A stretch of DNA of 47,664 nucleotides, taken from the NCBI GenBank assembly GCA_903894995.1, contig CAITSG010000081.1, positions 1 to 47,664 of the forward strand. Reading direction: 5' to 3'. Below the pieces are notes generated by a model. That model did no database searches. It was not told the origin of the DNA and saw nothing but the letters and a program-made list of their open reading frames with translations. Position numbers and translations under genes: made by a program. Origin of the DNA: an uncultured Burkholderiales bacterium. GTDB taxonomy: Bacteria; Pseudomonadota; Gammaproteobacteria; Burkholderiales; Burkholderiaceae_C. This document shows, piece by piece, positions 44,638 to 47,261 of the stretch (positions within the stretch are counted from its first letter, which is position 1; every line of letters begins with the position of its first letter).

Positions 44638-44711
44638 GCGGGTGTCGTTTAATGGTAGGACTTTTGCTTCCCAAGCAAATAACGAGGGTTCGATTCCCTT
44701 CGCCCGCTCCA
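44638..44711 (+). tRNA. tRNA-Gly(CCC)
   Basis: GCGGGTGTCGTTTAATGGTAGGAC-TTTTGCTTCCCAAGCAAA-TAACGAGGGTTCGATTCCCTTCGCCCGCTCCA; loop TTCCCAA gives anticodon CCC. Confidence 0.95.
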
Positions 44712-44813: not shown

Positions 44814-45539
44814 ATGCAAATCACCGTCAACGAAGAACTCAAAGCCTACATCGACCCGCTCACACCCGACGAGCACGCGGCGCTGGAGCGCAGTCTCCTG
44901 GCCGAAGGCTGCCGCGACGCGCTGGTCCTGTGGGGCGATGTGCTGGTAGACGGCCACAACCGCTACGGCATTTGCCAAAAGCATGGCCTGCCCTTTCAGA
45001 CGGTGCAAAACACACGCTTTCAATCGATGGCAGACGTGCACCTGTGGATGATCGATCAGGACCTGGGGCGGCGCAGCGTGTCGGATTTTCAGCGCGGCGT
45101 GCTGGCCCTGCGCAAGCGCGAGATTCTGGCCGAGCGGCGCGCGCTAACCATCGCTGCCACGGCAAAGGGGGATGACGCCACACTGGTCGAGCCTTACCCT
45201 GCGCCCCAGAGCAGCGCTGCGCCGGAGCCCAACCCGTTCAAGAGCCGAGCCGACATCGCCAAGCTTGCGCGCCTGAGCAGCAGCCAGGTGGTGCAGATCG
45301 AAAAAATCCAGAAACAAGCCGCCCCCGAATTGGTGGCCGCTGTCAAAGCCGGCACGATTTCACTCAACGCAGCCGCTGCAGTGGCCAGCTTGCCCGCCGA
45401 AGAGCAAAAGAGCGCAGCCCTGGGCGGCAAAGACGAACTGAAGCAAGCGGCCAAGCGCGTGCGCGATGTCCATCGCAAAACGCCGCCAGACACCCAGCCC
45501 TCTGGCGAATCGGACAGCACTGATGCAGCCCCCACATAA
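44814..45539 (+). CDS. ParB/KorB-like nucleoid/partition-domain protein
   Basis: ParB-N-like LLAEGCRDALVLWGDVLVDGHNRYGICQKHGLPF and HTH-like SRADIAKLARLSSSQVVQIEKIQKQAAPELVAAVKAGTISLNAAAAVASLP. Confidence 0.78.
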   Translation: MQITVNEELKAYIDPLTPDEHAALERSLLAEGCRDALVLWGDVLVDGHNRYGICQKHGLPFQTVQNTRFQSMADVHLWMIDQDLGRRSVSDFQRGVLALRKREILAERRALTIAATAKGDDATLVEPYPAPQSSAAPEPNPFKSRADIAKLARLSSSQVVQIEKIQKQAAPELVAAVKAGTISLNAAAAVASLPAEEQKSAALGGKDELKQAAKRVRDVHRKTPPDTQPSGESDSTDAAPT

Positions 45540-45737
45540 CTGCAAGCCCTGCGCGAACAGGTCGCCGCCTTGAACGCAGAAAACCATGCTTTGCGTGCTC
45601 AGGTGGCGCAGTTGCAGGCGCAATTGGCTGTTTGAATGTTGAGGGTTTGAGCCCGCCGACGCCCAGCCGCCCTTTAAGGACTGCAAACCCTGAGTCTGCG
45701 ACTTGTCAGAGCTCACCCTGCACAAACCAGCCCTGAG

Positions 45738-45805
45738 TGAGGCGCTCACCGGATCGGGCGATTTGGCGAGCGACGCGAGTATGAGCCCGACCGGTGAGCG
45801 TCTCA
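45738..45805. repeat. Long imperfect inverted repeat (possible REP-like palindromic element)
   Basis: Arms TGAGGCGCTCACCGGATCGGGC (45738-45759) and GCCCGACCGGTGAGCGTCTCA (45785-45805) are complementary apart from one bulge and one wobble/mismatch; 25-nt loop. Confidence 0.8.
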
Positions 45806-45842
45806 CACAGGGCGACCCCAGACAATGCAATGGTTCCACCAA

Positions 45843-45898: not shown

Positions 45899-46540
<642 letters not shown>

Positions 46541-46541
46541 A

Positions 46542-47261
46542 TCAGACTCCCGCCTTTTCAGTGATGGTGCGCTTTTCAATGCGTTTTTCAGGGTGCTGGT
46601 TCAGCACAATGCGGTGCACATAAATGCCCGGCAGGTGCACGCTGTCAGGGTGCATCTCGCCGGTCTCAACGATCTCCTCGACCTCGACCACACAAATCTT
46701 GCCCGCCATGGCCACCGCAGGGTTGAAGTTGCGCGAGGTGTAGCGGAACTGCAGGTTGCCGGACTTGTCGGCGCGGTGAGCTTTGACCAGTGACACGTCG
46801 GGCACCAAGGCGCGCTCCATCACGTAGGTCTCGCCATCAAATTCGCGCAGCTCTTTGCCTTCGGCCACCAAAGTGCCCACACCGGTCTTGGTGAAGAAAG
46901 CGGGAATGCCAGCGCCGCCCGCACGCAGCTTCTCGGCCAGCGTGCCTTGGGGTGTGAACTCCAAAGCCAGCTCGCCCGCCAAATACTGGCGCTCGAACTC
47001 TTTGTTTTCGCCCACATAAGAAGAAATCATCTTCTTGATCTGGCGGGTCTGCAGCAAGATGCCCAGACCAAAGTCGTCCACGCCCGCGTTGTTGGAAATC
47101 GCGGTCAGGTTTTGCACGCCGCTGTCGCGCAAGGCGGCAATCAGCGCTTCGGGGATGCCGCACAGGCCAAAACCGCCTACGCCAAACAATTGACCGTCAG
47201 CCACGATGCCCTTGAGGGCCTCGGCTGCGGAGGGATAAATCTTGTTCACGCCAAACTCCAT
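46542..47261 (-). CDS. scoA: 3-oxoacid CoA-transferase subunit A
   Basis: [101 protein letters not shown]. Confidence 0.93.

Follow-up and report, generated by a model that had tools for sequence, protein, structure and literature searches.

The window, the whole 47,664-nucleotide stretch that was analysed (contig CAITSG010000081.1 of assembly GCA_903894995.1, from an uncultured freshwater Burkholderiales bacterium of the genus Limnohabitans), carries a gene for a ParB-like protein directly after a tRNA-Gly(CCC) gene (Table 1). The reading frame runs through ...STDAAPT to an in-frame TAA and continues through the open codons LQALREQVAALNAENHALRAQVAQLQAQLAV to a TGA; both the coordinates and the sequence given for this arrangement in the initial annotation are confirmed. 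The mechanical gene start, ATG 44652, lies inside the tRNA gene and homologues start at the position of ATG 44814, and the start was therefore corrected to the latter, which on alignment is the start of the gene. A search of the source genome for a second copy of the gene found none. Between the gene and a convergent ORF (45899-46579) there is a 23-nt inverted repeat (45730-45752 and 45791-45813; 91% complementary, 38-nt spacer). Parts of this region match four other sites in the source genome, and it may for that reason be a REP-like dispersed repeat.

Table 1. Features of the ParB-like locus in window coordinates.
Feature	Position	Strand	Remarks
tRNA-Gly(CCC)	44638..44711	+	Immediately precedes the ParB-like gene on the same strand in most Limnohabitans relatives
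ParB-like gene body: predicted ParB-N domain, helix-turn-helix domain, linker	44814..45536	+	241 codons before the stop; homologues share the start Met
H83D codon	45060..45062	+	GAC, against CAC/CAT in 89 other sequences (homologue alignment)
TAA at residue 242, probably premature	45537..45539	+	Nearest relative has GAA here; sole stop in the column (90 rows)
C-terminal leucine-zipper tail, probably severed	45540..45632	+	31 codons; in-frame fusion in relatives; L011 helix model
Terminal stop TGA, probably ancestral	45633..45635	+	L011, L012, L013 and L002 terminate with TGA at the equivalent position

The AlphaFold model of an intact orthologue, that of Limnohabitans sp. WS1 (L011/G104), has a mean pLDDT of 86 and consists of an N-terminal mixed domain, helical middle domains, a low-confidence linker (residues ~227-238) and a single helix (residues 239-272). 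A Foldseek search with this model returned pNOB8-like ParB-N, Spo0J, Noc and KorB with a probability of 1.00, and the predicted succession of a ParB-N (ParB/Srx) fold and a helix-turn-helix (HTH) domain is that of ParB-like DNA-binding proteins. The protein also matches PHROG 4715, 'ParB-like partition protein' (E = 9e-13). The ParB-like body had no match among Pfam models, ParB_N included, or among those of NCBIfam. A search of the source draft genome with ParB_N (PF02195) yielded no hit above the curated cut-off that would represent a canonical chromosomal ParB; two weak matches only (G000 C519:13943-14149 and C527:2014-2220) fell just under it.

The tail beyond the TAA had been described as a coiled coil, and its sequence is indeed that of a perfect heptad leucine zipper, with L, V, N, V and L at the a positions and L, L, L and L at the d positions. 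The family profile gives a weak match to GCN4 zippers in the PDB (E about 0.01), and the equivalent helix of the L011 structure model has a pLDDT of about 83-95. A chance open frame was rejected on the ground of homology, as the same zipper is fused without a stop in relatives, and not on the ground of openness, which is itself ordinary: when the long ORFs were tiled across the window, 14 of 41 stayed open for 31 codons or more past their stop. Since openness after a stop is this common in the window, the open frame alone was not used as evidence.

A contig scan of genomes supplied 80 loci with homologues, and searching 60 relatives added 10 genomes, the window's own among them. The resulting alignment has 90 rows, with some genomes entered twice (84 distinct sequences), and covers Limnohabitans, other Comamonadaceae and Stenotrophomonas/Xanthomonas. 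The ParB-like protein of one record labelled Bacillus subtilis (L051; JAHREJ010000007.1) closely resembles its Stenotrophomonas counterparts, and the record, judging from this sequence, is probably mislabelled or contaminated. In every intact copy examined, from Limnohabitans, Hydrogenophaga, Variovorax, Acidovorax, Stenotrophomonas and Xanthomonas, the zipper is fused in frame to the ParB-like body with no stop between them; the alignment of homologues, suggested earlier as a check for a stop-free fusion of the coiled coil, thus gave a positive answer. The column of the window stop contains GAA in 27 rows, GAG in 12, GAT or GAC in 25 and other sense codons in the rest; TAA occurs in the window copy only, and 0 of the 89 other rows have any stop there. 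GAA is found at this codon in L012 and in the nearest relative, the WS1 orthologue L011, which is 87% identical to the window protein, with the same length, the same zipper and the same tRNA-Gly(CCC) neighbour, but which differs in having GAA at codon 242 and His at residue 83.

Because GAA is the commonest codon in the column and is also that of the nearest relative, and a stop occurs in none of the other rows, the change at codon 242 was most probably from GAA to TAA, and a recent nonsense mutation of this kind in a dispensable ParB-like gene is the reading we favour (probability roughly 0.7). The initial annotation had offered a recent nonsense mutation among its options, and its GAA variant agrees with the column. 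A stop absent from the orthologues, with homologous codons beyond it, is the pattern expected of a pseudogene arising by nonsense mutation. In addition to the stop-free zipper of all intact homologues, this reading is favoured by the substitution H83D (CAC to GAC), found in the window copy and the only change at His83 among the 90 rows, and by independent damage to the same gene in at least two other Limnohabitans genomes, one with TAG at W40 and one with a half-gene remnant.

The divergence between the window copy and L011 bears on the age of the stop. Their bodies differ by a dS of 0.42 and a dN of 0.07, and their 31-codon tails by three synonymous and three nonsynonymous changes. If the stop dated from the split from L011, a tail evolving neutrally ever since would be expected to have gained ~15 nonsynonymous changes on the window branch, against a total of three between both sequences; neutrality gives P of about 3e-4 with the body dS and is not significantly contradicted with the smaller tail dS. 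The paucity of tail changes therefore means that the stop is recent, or that the tail is still translated, or that the stop is not real. The body gives pairwise dN/dS values of 0.11-0.17 between the window copy and its relatives, like other pairs, and the private body changes on the window branch (eight synonymous and eight nonsynonymous) equal those of L011; this comparison of the two branches gives no clear sign of a general relaxation of selection on the body.

A stop that is not real would reflect a miscalled base, a misassembly or a minor allele, with GAA in the actual genome and a full-length protein of 273 residues. Such an error would look identical to a nonsense mutation in a draft of 558 contigs with an estimated contamination of 2.8%, and the TAA is one substitution from the family consensus. 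The barely diverged tail would be explained, and with H83D the gene carries another single-base change that is seen nowhere else in the family. The neighbouring ORFs (521 residues upstream, 226 and 239 residues downstream) are open, however, and decay of the same gene by nonsense mutation and deletion in other Limnohabitans genomes also speaks against an error, which we consider the main rival reading, unlikely but far from negligible.

Continued translation of the tail had been proposed in the form of stop-codon readthrough yielding two isoforms. The frame open past the TAA, the nearly intact tail beyond it and a C as the base after the stop are what this proposal has in its favour. Against it, the stop is conserved in none of the other 89 rows, anticodons TTA, CTA and TCA occur in 0 of the 35 tRNAs detected (a strong but not absolute result in a draft that is 96.6% complete), many shuffled sequences fold as well as the RNA surrounding and following the stop (z = -1.2), and other long ORFs of the window also end in TAA. 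Programmed readthrough was rejected on the first three of these grounds. A ParB-like protein made with and without its zipper, whether by readthrough or as a two-isoform system in vivo, is thus very improbable, and the particular case of two isoforms produced by readthrough of a recently acquired TAA is slightly more improbable still.

The zipper-less protein could also be the selected form in this lineage. In favour of such an adaptive truncation, the body is open up to the stop and has dN/dS values to relatives like those of other pairs. Against it, the stop is known from a single genome and is too recent a change to reveal selection, H83D alters a residue that is the same in every other sequence, and canonical ParB needs its C-terminal domain for dimerisation (PMC8367383). 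We give this explanation scarcely any credence.

A nonsense mutation would be in keeping with the fate of the gene elsewhere. Of 90 Limnohabitans genomes, 23 have the gene (18 of the 56 of good quality); it is dispensable in the genus. Its W40 codon is TAG in G016 and L015, which are probably the same genome, and an in-frame stop at codon 40 is likewise listed for L003. In G092 what is left next to the tRNA-Gly(CCC) gene is roughly half of the ParB-like gene, and it contains a TAG. A Stenotrophomonas maltophilia MAG (L070) has TAA at codon 151; this stop and that of L015/L003 show signs, in their sequences, of being independent events of sporadic decay or MAG errors. From the damaged copies in other genomes it follows that loss of the ParB-like gene is a recurrent and ordinary event. 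A literature search on Limnohabitans pseudogenes found nothing relevant.

From the sequences compared, tRNA-Gly(CCC) appears to be a hotspot for insertions in Limnohabitans. In L173 (G068) some 7.7 kb separate the tRNA from the ParB-like gene; this stretch includes one Phage_integrase and one resolvase ORF, and a repeat of the tRNA 3' end bounds it. In L174 (G028) an IS3-like transposase pair occupies this position; and in L175 (G083) a group II intron reverse transcriptase ORF adjoins a tRNA 3' fragment.

Under the favoured nonsense mutation, the ancestral product would have been a 273-residue ParB-like protein comprising ParB-N, HTH, a disordered linker and a C-terminal leucine zipper, whose gene closely follows tRNA-Gly(CCC) in Limnohabitans. 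The single-base change from GAA to TAA at codon 242 would terminate translation ahead of the zipper. By analogy with the C-terminal domain of canonical ParB, the zipper would dimerise the protein, and the truncated form would lack its primary dimer contact. The window copy may, on the same analogy, be an early-stage pseudogene or a hypomorph, and some function could survive the truncation. In annotation, the gene is best marked as probably a pseudogene or a truncated allele, with the possibility of an assembly error noted; beyond this it has little significance. The wider family, with a ParB fold and a GCN4-like zipper beside tRNA-Gly(CCC) and repeatedly lost in Limnohabitans, could merit a Pfam/NCBIfam model of its own because no existing model matches it.

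The closest structural relatives, pNOB8-like ParB-N (PDB 5k5d, 5k5a), Spo0J (1vz0) and KorB (8qa9), share the ParB-N and HTH arrangement (Foldseek E of 4e-6 to 7e-4), but at only 13-18% sequence identity, and the Limnohabitans family differs from them in having a short GCN4-like zipper for a C-terminal domain. By sequence, the ParB-like body is 68% identical to a 'plasmid replication/partition related protein' of Mitsuaria plasmid NZ_CP011515.1 and 40% identical to one of Methanoculleus virus Blf4; these are plasmid- and virus-borne, whereas the window gene adjoins a tRNA-Gly gene on a chromosomal contig. The ParB of Caulobacter (C. crescentus) dimerises primarily through its C-terminal domain, which acts with the CTP-operated N-terminal and DNA gates to entrap DNA (PMC8367383). 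Compared with such a canonical ParABS ParB, relatives of the window protein have a leucine zipper in place of the C-terminal dimerisation domain, and the window copy would have lost this part through the stop.
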